In this document: positions 1 through 21,577 of the stretch, piece after piece
Position numbering within the stretch: position 1 is the first letter of the stretch
How the letters are laid out: the number at the start of each line of letters is the position of its first letter
Source of the DNA: a virus
Length of the DNA stretch: 24,291 nucleotides
Direction: 5' to 3' (one strand)
IMG/VR virus record: IMGVR_UViG_3300048925_000427
Span: 1-24,291 of that record
Made by a program: the position numbers and the translations under genes
The notes under the pieces: model-generated
What the model was told of the DNA's origin: nothing
Database searches by the model: none
What the model saw: only the letters and a program-made list of their open reading frames with translations

Positions 1-720
1 CATAATGAACGTATTGCTGATATTGCTCTGACTGAGTCAGATGACTCGCGTGAAGATATTGACTCTGATGCATCCCGATGTTCCTTACCCCTCAAGCTCA
101 AAGTTCAGGATCTCTTTTATACATACGATGTTCACACAAAGCCGGTTCTTAATGGCGTTAACTTTAAGGTTGCCGCCGGAGAAAGCGTTGCAATAGTGGG
201 CGCTTCAGGCAGGGGAAAAACTACTCTGATGAAAATCCTCTCAGGACTTTATTCCCCTACGTCAGGCACAATTTTCGCTGATGATATAGATATCAACGCA
301 TTCGGAAGAAAAAAATATCAAAAGCGGATTGGCTGCGTACTGCAGGATGACAGGCTTTTTGCGGGATCAATTCGGGATAACATTGTGGGTTTTACCCCTG
401 ATTATGATACTGAATGGATGGAGCAGTGCGCACGGAGCAGCTTTATTCATGATGATATTATGGCGATGCCAATGGGATACAATACCTTGGTGGGTGAATT
501 GGGCGATGGTCTCTCGGGTGGACAAAAGCAACGGCTGTTTATTGCCCGCGCACTATTTCGTAAGCCGGGAATGTTGTTGCTGGATGAAGCCACCAGTCAT
601 CTTGATCAGGAGAGTGAAAGAGCCGTTAATGATGCCGTCCAGCAGCTTAATATTACGCGAATTATCATTGCTCACCGCCCCTCCACCATTGCGTCGGCTG
701 ATCGCGTTATACATCTTTAA
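1..720 (+). CDS. CvaB/MchF-type microcin (bacteriocin) export ABC transporter, 3' part
   Basis: The reading frame is open from base 1, so this is the C-terminal 239 residues of a longer protein whose peptidase and membrane domains lie outside the window. What is present is a complete ABC nucleotide-binding domain. Walker A GASGRGKTT is at partial residues 67-75, the Q-loop Gln about 115, the signature LSGGQKQR at 171-178, Walker B LLLDEAT at 192-198 and the switch His about 225 (IIAHRPSTI). The run MPMGYNTLVGELGDGLSGGQ closely resembles the colicin V exporter CvaB and its relatives. In that family the ATPase powers export of double-glycine-leader microcins through the inner membrane, together with an adaptor and TolC. 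The gene ends at TAA. No microcin precursor or immunity gene could be recognised downstream. The family call is strong; the cargo is unknown. Confidence 0.93.
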   Translation, partial: HNERIADIALTESDDSREDIDSDASRCSLPLKLKVQDLFYTYDVHTKPVLNGVNFKVAAGESVAIVGASGRGKTTLMKILSGLYSPTSGTIFADDIDINAFGRKKYQKRIGCVLQDDRLFAGSIRDNIVGFTPDYDTEWMEQCARSSFIHDDIMAMPMGYNTLVGELGDGLSGGQKQRLFIARALFRKPGMLLLDEATSHLDQESERAVNDAVQQLNITRIIIAHRPSTIASADRVIHL

Positions 721-738
721 TAGCACTGGCAAGTCCGG

Positions 739-930
739 TTAAATGTTACCCAGATTATTTGATGCCAATTCTTCTGCTGTCATGAAATAATCAGCCAGGC
801 TGAACCGTACCGGTTTTGTTGGAGAGTTTTTAGCCCGGGAACGCAGGATTCTTACTGCTTCGCCTCTGCCGGCACTGCCGTATCTGAGACCAGCCCCATA
901 AAAAATCGCCATCTTTAGCGTGCTGAACAT
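739..930 (-). CDS. Small hypothetical protein converging on the exporter gene
   Basis: This possible 63-residue protein is not recognised. It is read toward the end of the ABC transporter gene, 18 bases away. Codon choice looks coding-like and the C-terminal half is hydrophilic (ending EELASNNLGNI). ATG at 930 was chosen; a GTG at 945 is also in frame, and neither has a clear ribosome-binding site. In the colicin V locus the microcin and immunity genes converge on cvaB in this position, but this ORF has no double-glycine leader and no hydrophobic mature part. It could equally be a remnant or a chance frame. Confidence 0.3.
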   Translation of the reverse strand: MFSTLKMAIFYGAGLRYGSAGRGEAVRILRSRAKNSPTKPVRFSLADYFMTAEELASNNLGNI

Positions 931-3845: not shown

Positions 3846-4523
3846 ATGAAAATGAAAGTTTCTCTTGTATTGATTCCAGTTATGCTCAGTGGTTGTGCTT
3901 TATTTCTTCCAGACAAGGATGCCGTTACCATCAGCTTCTCTGGTGAAATTCCTGATTCATCCAGAGTTTATGCTATTGTACCTGGAGGTGAAAAAGAAAT
4001 CAAAAAGCACTCTGTTGTTTATGCAGCTTTTAAAAAAGCACTCAGCGAATCACTGACAGCAAACGGCTATGATGTTAGATCAACATTTGGTGATGTCCAG
4101 CAGGTGATAAAAATTGGCATAGACCCTGTCAGGTCATTTACCACCAGTTACACATACAAATCACCAATTTATGGGGTCACGTCTATCCATAACGAAGTCA
4201 CAAAAATTTATGATAGCGATAAGCATGAAATGGTGAGTACAGAGAAAATGGTTCCTGATTATGGTATTACAGGCTATGAGGATAAGACAAGTTACAATAC
4301 ATGGTATTACACAGAAGTTGACCTGTATTATTATAGTCGCGATGAAAAAGGCAAGGAAAAATACTTAGGGTATACGTCTGTTAAACTTGACTCACAGTGG
4401 AAAATTGATCAAAAGGCCATGGTATGCCTTGCTCAATTTGTCAGACCTTATCTTTTCCCCTTAACGCATAATGATATTAAACTGAAAAGCTATCGGTGGC
4501 AGATGAAGAATAAATGTAAGTAA
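3846..4523 (+). CDS. Predicted outer-membrane lipoprotein (DUF4136-like)
   Basis: The 225-residue product starts with a short lipoprotein signal: basic KMK, a hydrophobic core and lipobox LSGC with Cys at residue 17. Ala follows the Cys, so sorting to the outer membrane is expected. The mature part resembles DUF4136-type periplasmic lipoproteins: a segment predicting a conserved YAIVPGG, an AFKKALSESLTANGYDV helix-strand typical of that fold, and many Tyr/Lys residues. The start has AGAGG about six bases upstream. The upstream region is AT-rich with a TATAAA at 3815. It is monocistronic as far as can be seen. The lipoprotein call is strong; the family link is from pattern only. Confidence 0.8.
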   Translation: MKMKVSLVLIPVMLSGCALFLPDKDAVTISFSGEIPDSSRVYAIVPGGEKEIKKHSVVYAAFKKALSESLTANGYDVRSTFGDVQQVIKIGIDPVRSFTTSYTYKSPIYGVTSIHNEVTKIYDSDKHEMVSTEKMVPDYGITGYEDKTSYNTWYYTEVDLYYYSRDEKGKEKYLGYTSVKLDSQWKIDQKAMVCLAQFVRPYLFPLTHNDIKLKSYRWQMKNKCK

Positions 4524-5068
4524 AGATAGTTTCACCCGATGCATTTTTTCCTGCCTGAAAAGAAATCAGGCAAGGTAGATTCATTATTGAAACTACTTAT
4601 TAGCCTATCGTCATCCTGTCACAACTCCTCACTTGCCTTCCCGCTACACCTCCCAACCATGCGCGCCAGCATACCGTAAAGCGTGATGCTTTCCCGGGTA
4701 CTGGTGATTTTATCTGTAAGTGACAGGCAGTTTATGAGTGAGCCCTTGCCAGACTTTCACTTCAAATCAGGGTGTAAGTCGGTTGTAAGCACGCCATTCT
4801 GGTAATAATCATTAAAATGAATTTTAAAGATCTGAAGTTAAGAAAGTTGCCTAGGCAAAGTTCTTAAATTAATTTCCGTTATTACTCGTATCAGAGAGTC
4901 TGTGCAATCAATTTGCGTATCACTCCCAATGCGGGAATGTTAAAGGATGTTTCTCAGGTAACGAATTTCGAAACATACATTATGAAACGATGAATTTAAG
5001 TGCTTTGAATGTTCGCTGCACTGTTTTATCTTTTTGTGCTGAACGTTGGGCAGGAGAGGTTTAATAGG
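4524..5068. other. 545-base gene-free regulatory region before the LuxR-type gene
   Basis: No gene is supported on either strand. A small hairpin (TGCCTGA / TCAGGCA) near 4553-4575 lacks a T-run. The second half is AT-rich and holds the 30-bp palindrome at 4838-4867. The stretch is long for phage DNA and is presumably the control region of the LuxR-type regulator. Confidence 0.5.
4838..4867. promoter_or_regulatory. 30-bp near-perfect palindrome, candidate operator
   Basis: The layout is TTAAGAA, AG, a perfect 12-bp palindrome TTGCCTAGGCAA, AG, TTCTTAA. Outer and inner arms are fully complementary and only the two AG spacers break symmetry. It lies about 200 bases before the LuxR-type gene start. 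It suits a dimeric or tetrameric DNA-binding protein; autoregulation by the LuxR-type protein is a guess from position. Confidence 0.6.
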
Positions 5069-5665
5069 ATGTTTCGTCGTGAAAATTGCGTACTTGTCGT
5101 AGGCAAGGAAAATATTCTTCATCAGGGCTTATTTTATCTGATTGAGAGGGAAGGGTTGATGTGCAGTAAAAAAACGATATTTGCTGAAAACATGGCTCAG
5201 CTGACACACTGCCAGCCAGCTTTTCTTCAGGGGAATTACGCCCTTTCGTTGATATGTATTTCGGGAAAGGACTTTTTTCCTGAATGGGTTAGTTTACTCG
5301 TAAAGGTGACCTTTGATTCGGGGGGTAGTGTCATCATTTTCACTGATAAATATGATACTCTTACCTGCCAGAGGAAAAAAACTATCGAACGGATAACAGA
5401 TCTCGACTTCATTCTCCATCCAGGCCTTCCGGTAGCGTATGTCAGCCATGTAATTCAACTCAAAATGGAAAGTGAAAGTCTTCAGAAAATGAAGTGCAAG
5501 CTGTCTGCCCGGGAGATGACTATTTTAGATAGCTTTATCAGCGGAGTCAGCGCAGCCAGACAAGCCACTCTCCTCGGCATCACTCTCAAGACACTTTATC
5601 AACACCGGAAAAACTGTGCTAATAAGCTTGGATTAAGCAATCTTAAAGAGCTGTTATACATGTGA
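5069..5665 (+). CDS. LuxR-type (FixJ/NarL-like) transcriptional regulator with degenerate receiver
   Basis: The C-terminus (residues about 145-195) is a LuxR-type helix-turn-helix: KLSAREMTILDSFISG, then QATLLGITLKTLYQHRKN and a closing KLGLSNLKEL. The N-terminal part (about 5-130) has the alternating strand/helix hydrophobicity of a response-regulator receiver. The strand that should end in the phosphoacceptor Asp instead reads LICISGKD, so phosphorylation is unlikely. ATG at 5069 was chosen because GAGAGG sits nine bases upstream; an in-frame ATG at 5009 has no ribosome-binding site. It lies 27 bases before a small HTH gene and just ahead of Q, which suggests a role in phage or host-dependent late control (inference). 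The product is 198 residues. Confidence 0.85.
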   Translation: MFRRENCVLVVGKENILHQGLFYLIEREGLMCSKKTIFAENMAQLTHCQPAFLQGNYALSLICISGKDFFPEWVSLLVKVTFDSGGSVIIFTDKYDTLTCQRKKTIERITDLDFILHPGLPVAYVSHVIQLKMESESLQKMKCKLSAREMTILDSFISGVSAARQATLLGITLKTLYQHRKNCANKLGLSNLKELLYM

Positions 5666-6870: not shown

Positions 6871-6950
6871 ATGGCTGGATGCCTTCCCTGTGTCCTGCTC
6901 ATCCACCGGCTCCAGCCTTCTTTCTTCACCCCCCTTCGCGGCAAATTCTG

Positions 6951-7172
6951 ATGAGCAAACTGACTACTGGTATTGCATACAGCGCCTCTGCTGGTGAGAT
7001 AGCCCATGGTGTTCTTACTTATTTCAGTCCGGAGGAATGGAGTGCTGTGGGCGTTCTGATTGGCATCGGCATGGCTTTCGTTACCTGTGCCATAAACTGG
7101 TATTACAGGCGTAAGGCGACACTGGCTGAAATCAGTGCTTTGCGCTGCAAGCCACGTGATGTACCACGCTGA
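6951..7172 (+). CDS. Holin, phage 21 pinholin family
   Basis: Holins set the lysis time by collapsing the inner-membrane potential. The 73-residue product resembles phage 21 S: an N-terminal KLTTGIAYSASAGEI first segment that is only weakly hydrophobic, an EEWSAVGVLIGIGMAFVT second membrane segment (about 28-46), and a basic tail (YYRRKA). ATG at 6951 was chosen because it matches the family start; the upstream in-frame ATG at 6879 would add 24 residues with no membrane signal. Partnering a secreted, membrane-tethered endolysin immediately downstream fits a pinholin that depolarises the membrane without making large holes. Confidence 0.87.
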   Translation: MSKLTTGIAYSASAGEIAHGVLTYFSPEEWSAVGVLIGIGMAFVTCAINWYYRRKATLAEISALRCKPRDVPR

Positions 7173-7175
7173 GGT

Positions 7176-7679
7176 ATGGCTATATCCCCTGTTATGCGTA
7201 AAAGACTGCTGGCCACAGCAGGTGCGGGTGCATTTACCCTCGCAATTACACTCCTCGGCGGCGCGGATGGGCTCGAAGGGCGGCGTTATGTGCCGTACCA
7301 GGATGTCGCTGGCGTGCTCACCGTCTGTGACGGGCACACCGGTGCGGATATTGTCAGACACAAAACGTATACCGATCAGGAATGTGACAGCCTGCTGCGT
7401 GCTGACCTCAAACCCGTTCAGGAAAAAGTTGATAGTCTCGTTACCGTTTCTCTCAGTGAATACCGCCGTGCCGCGCTCTACAGCTTTGCCTATAACACCG
7501 GTACTGACGCTTTTTCCCGATCTTCTCTTCTTAGAAAACTTAACGCAGGCGACACAACAGGGGCGTGCAACGAATTGCGGCGCTGGGTCTTTGCCGGAGG
7601 AAAGAAGTGGGGAGGGCTGATGAACCGCCGTGAAACTGAGCGTGCACTTTGTCTGAAAGAGAACGGCGATGACCTTTAG
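7176..7679 (+). CDS. SAR endolysin (glycoside hydrolase 24 lysozyme)
   Basis: A muramidase that cleaves the peptidoglycan glycan backbone in the periplasm. The 167-residue product has the catalytic triad spacing of T4/P22/P21 lysozymes: Glu34, Asp43 and Thr49 (E-x8-D-x5-T). The N-terminus (residues about 9-30) is a weak, Gly/Ala-rich hydrophobic stretch, as in signal-anchor-release endolysins that are exported inactive and freed when the membrane is depolarised. Cys51 follows the triad, and such Cys residues often take part in activation. The ATG follows the holin stop by three bases with TGAGGT as ribosome-binding site. It overlaps Rz by 11 bases. Confidence 0.94.
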   Translation: MAISPVMRKRLLATAGAGAFTLAITLLGGADGLEGRRYVPYQDVAGVLTVCDGHTGADIVRHKTYTDQECDSLLRADLKPVQEKVDSLVTVSLSEYRRAALYSFAYNTGTDAFSRSSLLRKLNAGDTTGACNELRRWVFAGGKKWGGLMNRRETERALCLKENGDDL

Positions 7680-8312: not shown

Positions 8313-9287
8313 TTACCAGATAGGTGCTGTTGCTGAATTATAAAATTCAACTTCAATGCGGCGAGTTTGCAAAAAGCGGGTTGCATTAGCCATGCTCTCT
8401 CTATTGGTTGCTGAATTTTCATCGCCAAAAATCCCGACAAATATTTTACAGACGCTACTGTCTTGGATTTTGTCAAATATGTGTTTGTCGTTTTCAGCCA
8501 TGGAGTGACCATGAATGAATAGGTAATCACCCAAGTTACTAATTGCTTGATAGCAAGCGTTTAAGTAAGGGTTGTGTTTGATCTTTTCCAGTTTCTTATC
8601 GGCTGTAGGTTCAGATACAAACAATGGAAATCGGTCGTGATTCAAAAGATTTCCCACTTGCTCGGAAATACTAATATTTAAAGCATCATTAAAAGTGTGT
8701 TTGCGAATCACAGTGCCGTCATCATATAAGTGAAGTCCGCCGTGCAAGAAAAACACATCTTGGGTTTGCCTTGCAATCCAACGATCCCCTAAGAAACCAT
8801 CGTTGTTTATGTGATTATATGGTGAAACTTCTGTTTTATTGATAATCCAGTAAAGCAAGAGATCGTAATTCACCGTAAAAACCTTATCAAACTGGCTAAT
8901 GAACGGTTTTGCTTTTGCATACTGTGATATAGTTACTTGACTAGAGCGAGAAGGATGGGAGAGAGTAATTGCTTGAATTAATGAGTCTTTCAGTTGCTCT
9001 TTATCTGCGTTAATGCTGTCAAGTATGGGCAGTTGTACATTGTATCCTCTGCATACAACCAAGGCAGATTCCAGAGCCTGCATTACCTTTTCGAAATCGT
9101 AAGTATATAATTCCCTGAAAATATTATATAACGCTTGATGCCTAACTCCGAAGTTAGCGCGCTGAAATAAATTCCTGTAATTGAATATATCGCTTCTCCA
9201 AGCTTGAGAAAATCCATTCCCCAACAAAATGGAAGGCACAGCTCCATCGATTGAATCAAGTTTTTGCTCAAATGAATCCAATGGCAT
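8313..9287 (-). CDS. SIR2-like protein (DUF4917 family), probable phage-borne defence gene
   Basis: A 324-residue protein with the motif order of the SIR2-like superfamily. LLGNGFSQAW (residues 21-30) is the nucleotide-binding turn, VFTVNYD (136-142) matches the conserved NYD strand, FFLHGGLH (179-186) gives the probable catalytic His, and LFIHGHSMAENDKHI (256-270) closes the fold. This last motif is characteristic of DUF4917. SIR2-like proteins of several bacterial anti-phage systems degrade NAD; that role here is inference. The ATG has GGGAG upstream. It is convergent with the lysis genes and divergent from terminase, is AT-rich compared with both, and sits in the classic lambdoid cargo position between Rz1 and the small terminase. 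Confidence 0.85.
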   Translation of the reverse strand: MPLDSFEQKLDSIDGAVPSILLGNGFSQAWRSDIFNYRNLFQRANFGVRHQALYNIFRELYTYDFEKVMQALESALVVCRGYNVQLPILDSINADKEQLKDSLIQAITLSHPSRSSQVTISQYAKAKPFISQFDKVFTVNYDLLLYWIINKTEVSPYNHINNDGFLGDRWIARQTQDVFFLHGGLHLYDDGTVIRKHTFNDALNISISEQVGNLLNHDRFPLFVSEPTADKKLEKIKHNPYLNACYQAISNLGDYLFIHGHSMAENDKHIFDKIQDSSVCKIFVGIFGDENSATNRESMANATRFLQTRRIEVEFYNSATAPIW

Positions 9288-9418: not shown

Positions 9419-9991
9419 ATGACCTTAAATGCTAAGCAAGAAATGTTCTGTCGCGAGTACCTCATCGATTTGAACGCAACGCAGGCGGCCATTCGGGCGG
9501 GGTACAGTGCAAAAACTGCGAATGAACAGGGTGCCCGTCTATTAGCAAATGTTAGCATTCAGATAAGAATCTCTGAACTGAAAGCACAGCGCAATGATCG
9601 AATCGATGTTGATGCTGATTATGTGCTGAGACGCTTGTTTGAGATTGACCAGATGGATGTGCTCGACATCATGACAGATGACATGAGCATCAAACCCGTA
9701 TCGCAATGGCCTTCATCATGGCGTCGGTATCTGAGCGGATTCGATCTGGCTGAGATGTTTGATGGTCGGGGCGAAGAACGGGAAATGGTCGGTATCCTCA
9801 AAAAAATTAAATGGCCGGATAAAGTCAGGAATCTGGAGTTGCTCGGTAAACATATTACGGTACAGGCCTTCCGCGAGCAGGGTACGACCTCACTAACAGG
9901 CAAAGACGGCGGCCCGCTTGAGGTTGCGCTGCTTACACGCGAGGAATACCGGCAGGCCCGCCGGGAAATGCTGAAGGATGACGACTGCTGA
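9419..9991 (+). CDS. Terminase small subunit
   Basis: Recognises the packaging site on phage DNA and loads the large subunit. The 190-residue product has the terminase_2 N-terminal DNA-binding domain: LNAKQEMFCREYLIDLNATQ, then AAIRAGYSAKTANEQGARLL (residues about 3-42). A central oligomerisation region and a C-terminal tail rich in Arg and Glu follow. AGG lies about ten bases before the ATG. The gene overlaps the large subunit start by 14 bases. It is the first gene of the morphogenesis block after the reverse-strand cargo gene. Confidence 0.93.
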   Translation: MTLNAKQEMFCREYLIDLNATQAAIRAGYSAKTANEQGARLLANVSIQIRISELKAQRNDRIDVDADYVLRRLFEIDQMDVLDIMTDDMSIKPVSQWPSSWRRYLSGFDLAEMFDGRGEEREMVGILKKIKWPDKVRNLELLGKHITVQAFREQGTTSLTGKDGGPLEVALLTREEYRQARREMLKDDDC

Positions 9992-11450
9992 ATTCAGGAA
10001 CGCCGCGCGCCGTATAGAGTGTGAAGAGGACGGGCTCTACTTTACCCGTTACTTCTTCAAGCAGCGCACCGGCAGCAGGATGATTGTCGCGCCTCATCAT
10101 CAGGTGATACAACGAACGCTGGACCGGGTGATTGATGGTGATATCCGGCGACTCATCATCAATGTTCCTCCCGGATATACCAAGACGGAGATGGCCACCA
10201 TCAACATGATGGGCCGTGGGCTTGCGCTGAACCGTCGTGCCCGCTTTATGCACCTGTCCTATTCCCACAACCTGGCATTACTGAACTCATCAACCACGCG
10301 CAGCATTGTGAAATCCGCAGCCTTTCAGGCCATGTGGCCAATGGCGCTGCGCGATGATGCAGACAGTAAAGCCATGTGGTGGACGGAATATGGTGGTGGC
10401 GTCTATGCCTCGTCCGCTGCCGGTCAGGTTACAGGCTTTCGTGCGGGGCATATGGAGCCGGGCTGGCAGGGCTGCCTGATTCTGGACGATGCCGTGAAAC
10501 CCGACGACGCTTATAGCGAAGTCATCCGTGACGGGATCAATACCCGCTTCAACGAAACCATTCGCTCCCGTCTTGCCATTGAAACCACGCCCATCGTGGT
10601 CATCATGCAGCGTATACATTACCACGACCTGAGCGGGTACCTGTTACGGGGTGGTGGCGGGGAACAGTGGCATCACCTCAACCTGCCGGTATTGATTGAT
10701 AACAGCGAACAGTATTCTGCGCTCTATCCGGAAAACTCGCACGCCATACCCATTAAACATGGTCTGCCTGATGGCTGGCTGTGGCCCTACAAGCACAACG
10801 AGTCGCATCGCGTTTCCCTGTTTTCACACCGGCGCACCGCTGAGGCACAGTACATGCAGCGCCCCCGGCGGTTCAACGCCGAAGGTGCGCTCTGGACCGA
10901 AGCTATGGTGTCCGGTGCGCGAGCGCTGGATATTGCCCTTCAGCCCTCACGTACTGTGGTCGCTATCGACCCTCAGGCAACCAACAGCGAAGAGAGTGAC
11001 GAAACCGGTATTGTCGTGGCGAGCAGTTATGGCCGCGGTAATGATCGGCTGTTCTCAGCTGATGCGGATTACTCCGGGAGGTACTCGCCGAACGGCTGGG
11101 CTAAGCGGGCCATGCGGGCGTATGACGATCACCACGCTGAAGCTATTGTTATCGAGACCAACCAGGGTGGTGACATGGCGGAGGACACCCTGCGTAATGC
11201 GGGCTTCCGCGGTCGCATCATTCGTGTGCACGCCAGTAAAGGTAAGTTTGCCCGCGCAGAGCCGATTTCAGCGCTGTATGAACAGGGCCGGGTGTCACAC
11301 CGCGGCAACCTTTACCAGCTTGAAAACCAGCTGCTGGAATACGTACCCGCCAGCGCAAAAAAATCACCTGACCGCCTCGACGCTCTGGTCTGGGCCATCA
11401 CCGAGTTATTCCAGCCGAAAGGCACCACAGTCCGACCATTCACTGCCTGA
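9978..11450 (+). CDS. Terminase large subunit
   Basis: The ATP-driven packaging motor and nuclease that fills the prohead. The 490-residue product has an N-terminal ATPase domain with a variant Walker A (NVPPGYTKTE, residues about 62-71), Walker B GCLILDDAV (165-173) and a coupling motif around 205-215. The RNase H-like nuclease domain begins near 325 with catalytic-type acidic residues in VVAIDP (Asp331), IVIETNQGGD (Glu393) and SPDRLDALVW (Asp465 or Asp468). Length is normal for the family. Its start overlaps the small subunit gene, so the two are probably translationally coupled. Confidence 0.96.
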   Translation: MTTAEFRNAARRIECEEDGLYFTRYFFKQRTGSRMIVAPHHQVIQRTLDRVIDGDIRRLIINVPPGYTKTEMATINMMGRGLALNRRARFMHLSYSHNLALLNSSTTRSIVKSAAFQAMWPMALRDDADSKAMWWTEYGGGVYASSAAGQVTGFRAGHMEPGWQGCLILDDAVKPDDAYSEVIRDGINTRFNETIRSRLAIETTPIVVIMQRIHYHDLSGYLLRGGGGEQWHHLNLPVLIDNSEQYSALYPENSHAIPIKHGLPDGWLWPYKHNESHRVSLFSHRRTAEAQYMQRPRRFNAEGALWTEAMVSGARALDIALQPSRTVVAIDPQATNSEESDETGIVVASSYGRGNDRLFSADADYSGRYSPNGWAKRAMRAYDDHHAEAIVIETNQGGDMAEDTLRNAGFRGRIIRVHASKGKFARAEPISALYEQGRVSHRGNLYQLENQLLEYVPASAKKSPDRLDALVWAITELFQPKGTTVRPFTA

Positions 11451-20272: not shown

Positions 20273-21577
20273 CTATGATATGCGAGAGAAAAAATGATGG
20301 TTAAGATCTTTATCAAAGTAATGCTTGCGCTTCACCCATATAAATCCATCTCCTTTTGATATTATAGCAACATCAATTGGGCCGCCAACGGTTTCATTGT
20401 CGTTGGATACTTTTCGCTTGAAAGCTGTGAGGTTTACCAACGATTCTGCCATGTACGCCAAATCTTGCTTTGGTAAAAACTCTATCATTTCAGTTACTTT
20501 TGAACTGTATTTATCTGATATATGCCCCTCTACAGTACGCTGAAAATCAGATAAACTGTTTTCTAATAAGTCTTTCGCTTTAGCTATTAATGTTTCCTTT
20601 TCTTTAGCTGTTATATTTATTTTATTGATTTCATTGGATATATTTTCAAGCATTCCGTCGTGTTCAACAGATACTCCTGCAAACATAAACTGCTTTAAAC
20701 TTTTGCTGATACCATGAAGGAATGTTTCGACTTCTTCTTCTTGTGCATAAGCAAAGACGTTACTTGCACCTCCCGATGAGCTTTTTTCAGTATTAGGAGA
20801 GAATCTCAATTTCCTATTAAAGAAACCCAGAACGTCAAAGGCTAGTATTGCTGGCATATATTCTTGCTCACCATATCCAGCAAAAACTAATCCCGTGTTA
20901 TGCCCAAATGGAGATTTCTTGCATGTAATATATGCAAATAACTCAGCAATAACCTCATATAAGCTGTCAGGAATTACAATACCATCCTCTTTAATCAGTC
21001 GACTGTCACATATTTCTTTAGCTATAGGTGTGGCAAACTCTTTAGCTGACTGTATATCGCTGTCATTCATTCCTTCAAGGAATTCAGCGTTGGTTAGACC
21101 AGATAAGACAACTTTACATCCCTGCTCGATAAGGGTATATGTCTCTAAAATTGTTGGGCTTAAGCCTGTCTCATCAATTTTAGGCTCAATTAGTGTTTTT
21201 TCAATATGTGTTATTAAGGCGGGAAAGAATCTATTGTCGTAAGTTTCGATTAAATAGTTTTCACGGATGTCCATTGGGATAATATGTTCACCAGAGCACA
21301 AAAATTGCCAAAAGTCCTCAGCATATTGTTGTACTGTATCAAAAGATGAGTCACCAATCTTTTTTCTGTACTGCTTGATAATCATCTCCCATGGAATTCC
21401 GCAAAGAGAAGCAGTACCGAAAATCATAATTCCTACAGGGTGGTGTTTGCTGAGGGAAAATAGTTTATCGGCACCATTATAGATTTTATTAATATTATCC
21501 CCGCCGGATATGGTTACTGCTGAATCCGCTGCAAGAGATACTGCTGATTTATTAAAAACTGCAATTTCTGCTGTCAT
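20273..21577 (-). CDS. Divergent proteasome-beta/HslV-like Ntn hydrolase (putative threonine peptidase)
   Basis: A 434-residue protein not annotated by simple family recall, but with an Ntn-peptidase pattern. Thr2 becomes N-terminal once Met is removed. The first strand pair (TAEIAVFNKSAVSLAADSAVTI) places Asp at mature position 17, the position of the acidic active-site residue of proteasome beta. KIYNGADKLFSL (31-42) resembles archaeal HKNGKKLFQI, whose Lys33 is catalytic, and MIFGTASL (51-58) follows. Later blocks are LVFAGYGEQEYMPAILAFDV (230-249), SSSGGAS (266-272) and GGPIDVAIISKGDG (398-411); archaeal beta ends with GGMIDVAVITRKDG. It is twice the usual length, the extra being helical insertions near 75-225 and 275-370. 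The gene is AT-rich and opposite to the tail operon. Confidence 0.7.
   Translation of the reverse strand: MTAEIAVFNKSAVSLAADSAVTISGGDNINKIYNGADKLFSLSKHHPVGIMIFGTASLCGIPWEMIIKQYRKKIGDSSFDTVQQYAEDFWQFLCSGEHIIPMDIRENYLIETYDNRFFPALITHIEKTLIEPKIDETGLSPTILETYTLIEQGCKVVLSGLTNAEFLEGMNDSDIQSAKEFATPIAKEICDSRLIKEDGIVIPDSLYEVIAELFAYITCKKSPFGHNTGLVFAGYGEQEYMPAILAFDVLGFFNRKLRFSPNTEKSSSGGASNVFAYAQEEEVETFLHGISKSLKQFMFAGVSVEHDGMLENISNEINKINITAKEKETLIAKAKDLLENSLSDFQRTVEGHISDKYSSKVTEMIEFLPKQDLAYMAESLVNLTAFKRKVSNDNETVGGPIDVAIISKGDGFIWVKRKHYFDKDLNHHFFSRIS

Follow-up and report, generated by a model that had tools for sequence, protein, structure and literature searches.

A reversed gene between the lysis and terminase genes of a temperate phage encodes a member of the DUF4917 family with a predicted SIR2 fold of the anti-phage type and with residues that, by alignment, match the catalytic pocket of DSR2 and ThsA. 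The gene lies in the virus record IMGVR_UViG_3300048925_000427, whose 24,291 nucleotides are called the window below. A role in defence is likely, judging from sequence and model, and we consider it reasonably probable that this is a lysogenic-conversion ("moron") gene whose product, a free-standing SIR2-type enzyme, would cleave NAD+ on infection and abort it. The listing of DUF4917 as phage-defence candidate PDC-S21 was already known; the predicted SIR2 fold, the putative pocket and the proposed mechanism are added here. A search of the literature returned no assay, NAD measurement, plating data or published fold for the family.

The gene and its family

The window comprises the late region of a temperate phage, running from antiterminator Q through holin, lysozyme, Rz/Rz1 and terminase to the head and tail genes. 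The sole gene between the end of Rz1 (8245) and the start of terS (9419) is the reversed DUF4917 gene. The relevant features are as follows, with the codon coordinates of the three motifs calculated from the position of the open reading frame:

6879..7172 (+), holin of the P21 S type, left of the slot
7176..7679 (+), phage lysozyme
7669..8070 (+), Rz spanin, with an overlapping Rz1-like frame to 8245
8313..9287 (-), DUF4917 gene (PDC-S21), 324 aa, predicted SIR2 fold (from reading frame, Pfam, PADLOC and predicted structure)
8739..8744 (-), H182-G183 codons, putative counterpart of DSR2 H171 and ThsA H152 (alignment, conservation)
8862..8870 (-), N140-Y141-D142 codons, putative counterpart of DSR2 N133-Y134-D135 and ThsA N112-Y113-D114 (alignment, conservation)
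9207..9221 (-), G23-N24-G25-F26-S27 codons, conserved N-terminal GNGxS loop (alignment)
9419..9991 (+), terminase small subunit (terS), right of the slot
9978..11450 (+), terminase large subunit (terL)

The frame is intact from its ATG start. The initial annotation called the gene AT-rich and reversed relative to its neighbours, and both descriptions are borne out: its GC content is 38.6% (GC3 0.375), compared with 57.4% (GC3 0.648) in terL and 54.8% in the lysozyme gene, and it is encoded on the minus strand, opposite to the plus-strand genes for holin, lysozyme, Rz/Rz1, terS and terL. The motifs named there are also correctly placed, with NYD at residues 140-142, LHGG at 181-184 and GHSMAENDKHI at 260-270, so that the numbering of Asn140 and His182 stands. 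The further statement that the gene has no partner agrees with our scan of the window, a 24.3-kb fragment of a phage whose remainder may hold one. No HerA domain scored above the cut-off, the only trace being a 13.5-bit sub-threshold match inside the left-end ABC ATPase; no N6_Mtase was detected, and hence no location in an hsd operon; and no ThsB-type TIR partner was found among the window genes scanned. A search for promoters and terminators around the gene gave nothing convincing and no more than in shuffled sequences.

Pfam PF16263 (DUF4917) covers residues 20-324 over profile positions 1-311 of 311 (E 1.1e-56, 193 bits, cut-off 28), and since the match extends over the whole profile, the reading frame is not a chance one. 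PDC-S21 matches still better (E 3.2e-112, 373 bits), and the protein is a member of the DUF4917/PDC-S21 family. Two other Pfam profiles remained below threshold on the window protein, SIR2_2 (PF13289; 13 bits, gathering score 24.5) and AbiH (PF14253; E 0.024, 15.1 bits, cut-off 30.9); the AbiH profile gives E 3e-4 on the 74% identical relative (L133/L002). An NCBIfam lipoprotein match (E 0.005, 16 of 80 bits) was dismissed as chance. Neither a phage collection nor E. coli genomes contained a close DNA or protein copy, and the gene is therefore rare in enterobacterial phages. Presence of the family is patchy (9/392 and 11/369 sampled genomes), and an occurrence of about 2-3% is as expected of mobile defence genes. 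Compared with its 74% identical relative in the viral contig L002, the gene has a dN of 0.17 with dS saturated and not estimable; amino-acid conservation is thus strong while synonymous sites are saturated.

Predicted fold and catalytic pocket

We aligned 100 relatives from viral and genome contigs and modelled the window protein with AlphaFold2 (pLDDT 93.3, pTM 0.91). The model shows a SIR2 fold from end to end, with a helical insert at about residues 37-131. The SIR2 part takes up residues 1-322, and there is no separate sensor domain. In a Foldseek search of the PDB, SIR2 chains from SIR2-HerA systems occupy each of the top 16 places, the best at E 2e-9. In VIA-align, the best of these chains align over 275-297 of 324 residues at Z 19-20, followed by ThsA (14.3), KomC (13), SPARSA (12.7), DSR2 (12.1) and Avs5 (12.1); classical sirtuins reach Z 11-12. 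A SIR2-like fold had been proposed from short motifs, with the absence of a Rossmann-like SIR2 fold from a predicted structure set as the refutation test. The fold is present in the model and the test does not refute the proposal, because Foldseek and VIA-align both place the model among SIR2 proteins. The predicted structure thus strongly supports a SIR2 Rossmann-type fold of the anti-phage SIR2 (defence-associated sirtuin) superfamily. A search of predicted viral structures with the model gave no matches, and when the protein alone served as query against the sequences of solved structures the result was noise only, with Kiwa KwaB at E 0.16.

The active site of DSR2 consists of N133, Y134, D135 and H171, equivalent to N112, Y113, D114 and H152 of ThsA (PMC11263360), and FAM118B relies on N163 and H206, substitution of which abolishes activity (PMC12700824). 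The earlier reading of the NYD and LHGG motifs as SIR2-like is supported by our alignment, in which N140-Y141-D142 and H182 appear to be the counterparts of the DSR2 and ThsA residues. The spacing from N to H is 42 in the window protein vs 38 in DSR2, 40 in ThsA and 43 in FAM118B. A profile alignment to PsSIR2, weak when taken alone (E 0.05), places NYDL opposite NYDL and LHG opposite LHG. The 100-relative alignment is biased with respect to motif invariance, as loci had been fetched by NYDL..YW or HG patterns, and conservation was for this reason rechecked on relatives fetched with the whole-family HMM: among those covering the sites, N140, Y141 and D142 are kept in 14/14 and H182 in 15/15. 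The plasmid relatives, which were found by whole-protein tblastn, agree on the pocket motifs. The window protein has three scattered cysteines and no CxxC, and the four-cysteine module of classical zinc sirtuins is absent.

A variable slot between lysis and terminase genes

L002 has the same gene order as the window (lysozyme, Rz, reversed DUF4917, terS, terL). In L093, with a 64% identical protein, DUF4917 lies between another terminase pair (phrog_141 small subunit, phrog_15 large subunit) and Rz, endolysin and holin. The three DUF4917 proteins form one clade with 99% support. To survey the slot, 80 relatives of the window terS were collected, 51 of which show both slot ends. Slot length among these 51 phages ranges from 0.94 to 3.6 kb, the open reading frames within fall into 75 clusters, and 34/51 carry a reversed frame at most 200 nt from terS. 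The "cargo slot" label of the initial annotation is correct, given that contents vary across related phages, and the gap between lysis and terminase genes is a genuine hotspot. Two of the reversed occupants are TIR proteins (PDC-S66, E 1e-110; ThsB-like, E 2e-44), situated before terS:

L125:3894-4949 (-), TIR-domain slot gene
L131:3092-3961 (-), TIR-domain slot gene

Related phages thus carry TIR in the position of DUF4917, and two folds of NAD-degrading defence enzymes would alternate in one slot. Other occupants match PDC-S22, PDC-S29/S30, PD-T7-4 and HNH endonucleases.

Phage-borne copies are also found elsewhere. In P2-like prophages, DUF4917 is flanked by a baseplate gene and the gene for tail completion, which we take to be the position where P2 carries Z/fun. 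On the Bacillus velezensis plasmid p3 (L012), the gene adjoins one for an LXG toxin, and the holin and amidase genes of a phage-like element are close by; here the cargo is on the lysis side of an element unrelated to the window phage.

Neighbourhoods of bacterial and plasmid relatives

Most relatives belong to bacteria or plasmids and lie in defence islands, with further copies in integrons and prophage cargo sites. Plasmid copies adjoin type I restriction-modification (RM) genes, lie near the anti-phage protein Hhe, apparently in a cassette array, or neighbour retron Eco8 and an ABC-three-component system. The link to defence made in the initial annotation is backed by these neighbourhoods, the PDC-S21 models and the measured variability of the slot. 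A gene for a small DUF6232 protein is found just upstream of DUF4917 in 10 loci (L097-L103, L105, L108 and L033), mostly P2-like prophages. It is a possible partner in that subgroup; as an obligate partner it was rejected, being absent from the window, L002 and L093.

The least expected result is the repeated presence of DUF4917 inside bacterial type I restriction operons, which by analogy suggests that some members guard restriction enzymes. Genes of hsdM/hsdR type lie within 7 kb of DUF4917 in 28/76 bacterial loci. In 9 loci hsdR follows on the same strand, starting no more than 10 nt from where DUF4917 stops, and in 10 a gene of the hsdM/hsdS cluster, which mixes HsdM and HsdS owing to single linkage, precedes DUF4917 by at most 35 nt. 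Examples retyped by Pfam gave the order hsdM, hsdS, DUF4917, hsdR in L074 and L091, and a fused MTase-S gene immediately before DUF4917 in L036. The embedded form is seen in several separate clades. Among viral copies, 2/32 are beside hsd genes, and in the part of the tree to which the window protein belongs RM genes occur near L013 and L016 only. DUF4917 stands directly before hsdR, at -9 to +7 nt, in L074, L078, L082, L089-L092, L104 and L106. RM-embedded loci often continue with a gene of about 240 aa whose sequence appears to resemble a DUF45/YgjP-type metallopeptidase.

Discussion

The window protein probably belongs among the anti-phage SIR2 proteins, as judged from its model. The SIR2 subunit of SIR2-HerA (Nezha) is the closest solved fold, and the NYD and H residues pair with those of PsSIR2, but identity is about 15% and the protein is shorter (324 aa vs about 380-400 aa). 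Thoeris ThsA shares the SIR2 core and the N-Y-D/H pocket, but is about 470 aa long with the matched part ending near 270, and the window protein is without the second, C-terminal sensor domain. The DSR-type sirtuins share the pocket as well, whereas the C-terminal region with which DSR2 senses tail tube, some 700 residues, is missing. The protein is therefore not a Nezha, Thoeris or DSR2 system, the further defining parts of each being absent. AbiH resembles it in being a single-gene system and in the weak profile match, which is below the Pfam cut-off. PrrC of EcoprrI is comparable in genetic setting, since prrC and bacterial DUF4917 genes both lie inside type I RM operons, but PrrC is an anticodon nuclease whose catalytic domain is unrelated, and the window copy stands alone.

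The predicted shape and the active-site residues match those of NAD-destroying anti-phage enzymes, and the gene is thus probably a ready-made defence for the lysogen. Borrowing the NAD-depletion model from DSR-type sirtuins, we infer NAD as substrate, activation by infection, an abortive outcome and a benefit to the lysogen. The protein would be expressed from the prophage and stay inactive in the lysogenic cell until an incoming phage brings or does something that triggers it. It would then cleave NAD+ via N140/Y141/D142 and H182, and loss of NAD would halt the infected cell before the invading phage matures. The likeliest switch may be self-assembly or binding of a phage or host protein, since the protein has no extra sensor domain and the window no HerA.

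One alternative is that DUF4917 is a NAD-degrading guard of type I restriction enzymes. HsdR/M/S would then silence it, a phage that blocks restriction would set it free, and the phage copy would use the host's type I enzyme. The operon embedding in several clades argues for this model, and has a parallel in prrC, which sits inside the prrABD type IC operon (PMC3874165) and whose product stays silent under the control of the RM enzyme until a phage anti-restriction factor activates it (PMC2610378). With this parallel, a guard role for the embedded genes is a fair hypothesis. It is weaker for the phage copy, which is free-standing: the window lacks type I RM genes, such genes are rare beside viral copies and on this side of the tree, many bacterial loci are without an RM neighbour, and co-location may merely reflect a shared defence island. 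We find it doubtful that the family as a whole consists of single-domain NADases guarding type I enzymes, with phages carrying a free-standing version that plugs into the host restriction enzyme, and unlikely that the window gene works as such a PrrC-like guard.

A SIR2 fold by itself is no demonstration of NADase activity; the fold is common to the classical sirtuins, and the substrate cannot be read from it. Another use of NAD-type substrates, in signal processing, ADP-ribosylation or protein deacylation, nevertheless appears quite unlikely, as anti-phage SIR2 proteins match far better than sirtuins do, the zinc module is lacking and neighbourhoods are of defence rather than metabolic type. 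That the gene is phage-borne and adjoins late genes could point to counter-defence, aiding the phage against host systems, a very improbable role for a family found mainly in bacterial and plasmid defence islands and for a gene that, being reversed and AT-rich, is suited to being expressed on its own in the lysogen. It is highly improbable that the gene is passing cargo with no present function; the lack of a clear promoter and the in-frame stops in a few relatives are consistent with this, but the intact frame, the conserved pocket and the amino-acid conservation relative to L002 despite saturated synonymous sites argue against it.

If the proposed NAD-cleaving defence of the lysogen is true, the untested PADLOC candidate PDC-S21 acquires a fold, a catalytic pocket and a mechanism that can be tested. 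The gap between lysis and terminase genes in enterobacterial phages would then join the known prophage defence hotspots, and SIR2-type and TIR-type proteins would swap in the same position. The recurrent embedding in type I operons leads to the testable idea of a NADase as a back-up that would fire once restriction is defeated.

Other features of the window

A second reversed AT-rich gene (20273-21577, minus strand, 35-38% GC, 434 aa) is found in the tail region before a tape-measure-like gene. Its product matches phrog_5990 (unknown function, E 2e-143), with no Pfam match above threshold, and its N-terminus (MTAEIAVFNKSAVSLAADSAVTI) presumably resembles proteasome-like hydrolases; this is possibly a second cargo slot. 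At the left edge, 1-742 (+) is the end of an ABC-exporter-type ATPase, upstream of a P63C-domain gene (1597-2628), which could be host flank or bacteriocin-export cargo. Another possible cargo gene, 3846-4523 (+), is AT-rich (38% GC); its 225-aa product begins like a lipoprotein (LSGCALF) and matches nothing in Pfam. A LuxR/GerE-type regulator (E 4e-7) is encoded at 5009-5665 (+), upstream of antiterminator Q, and the related phages L127, L132 and L137 carry a similarly sized gene at a similar place.
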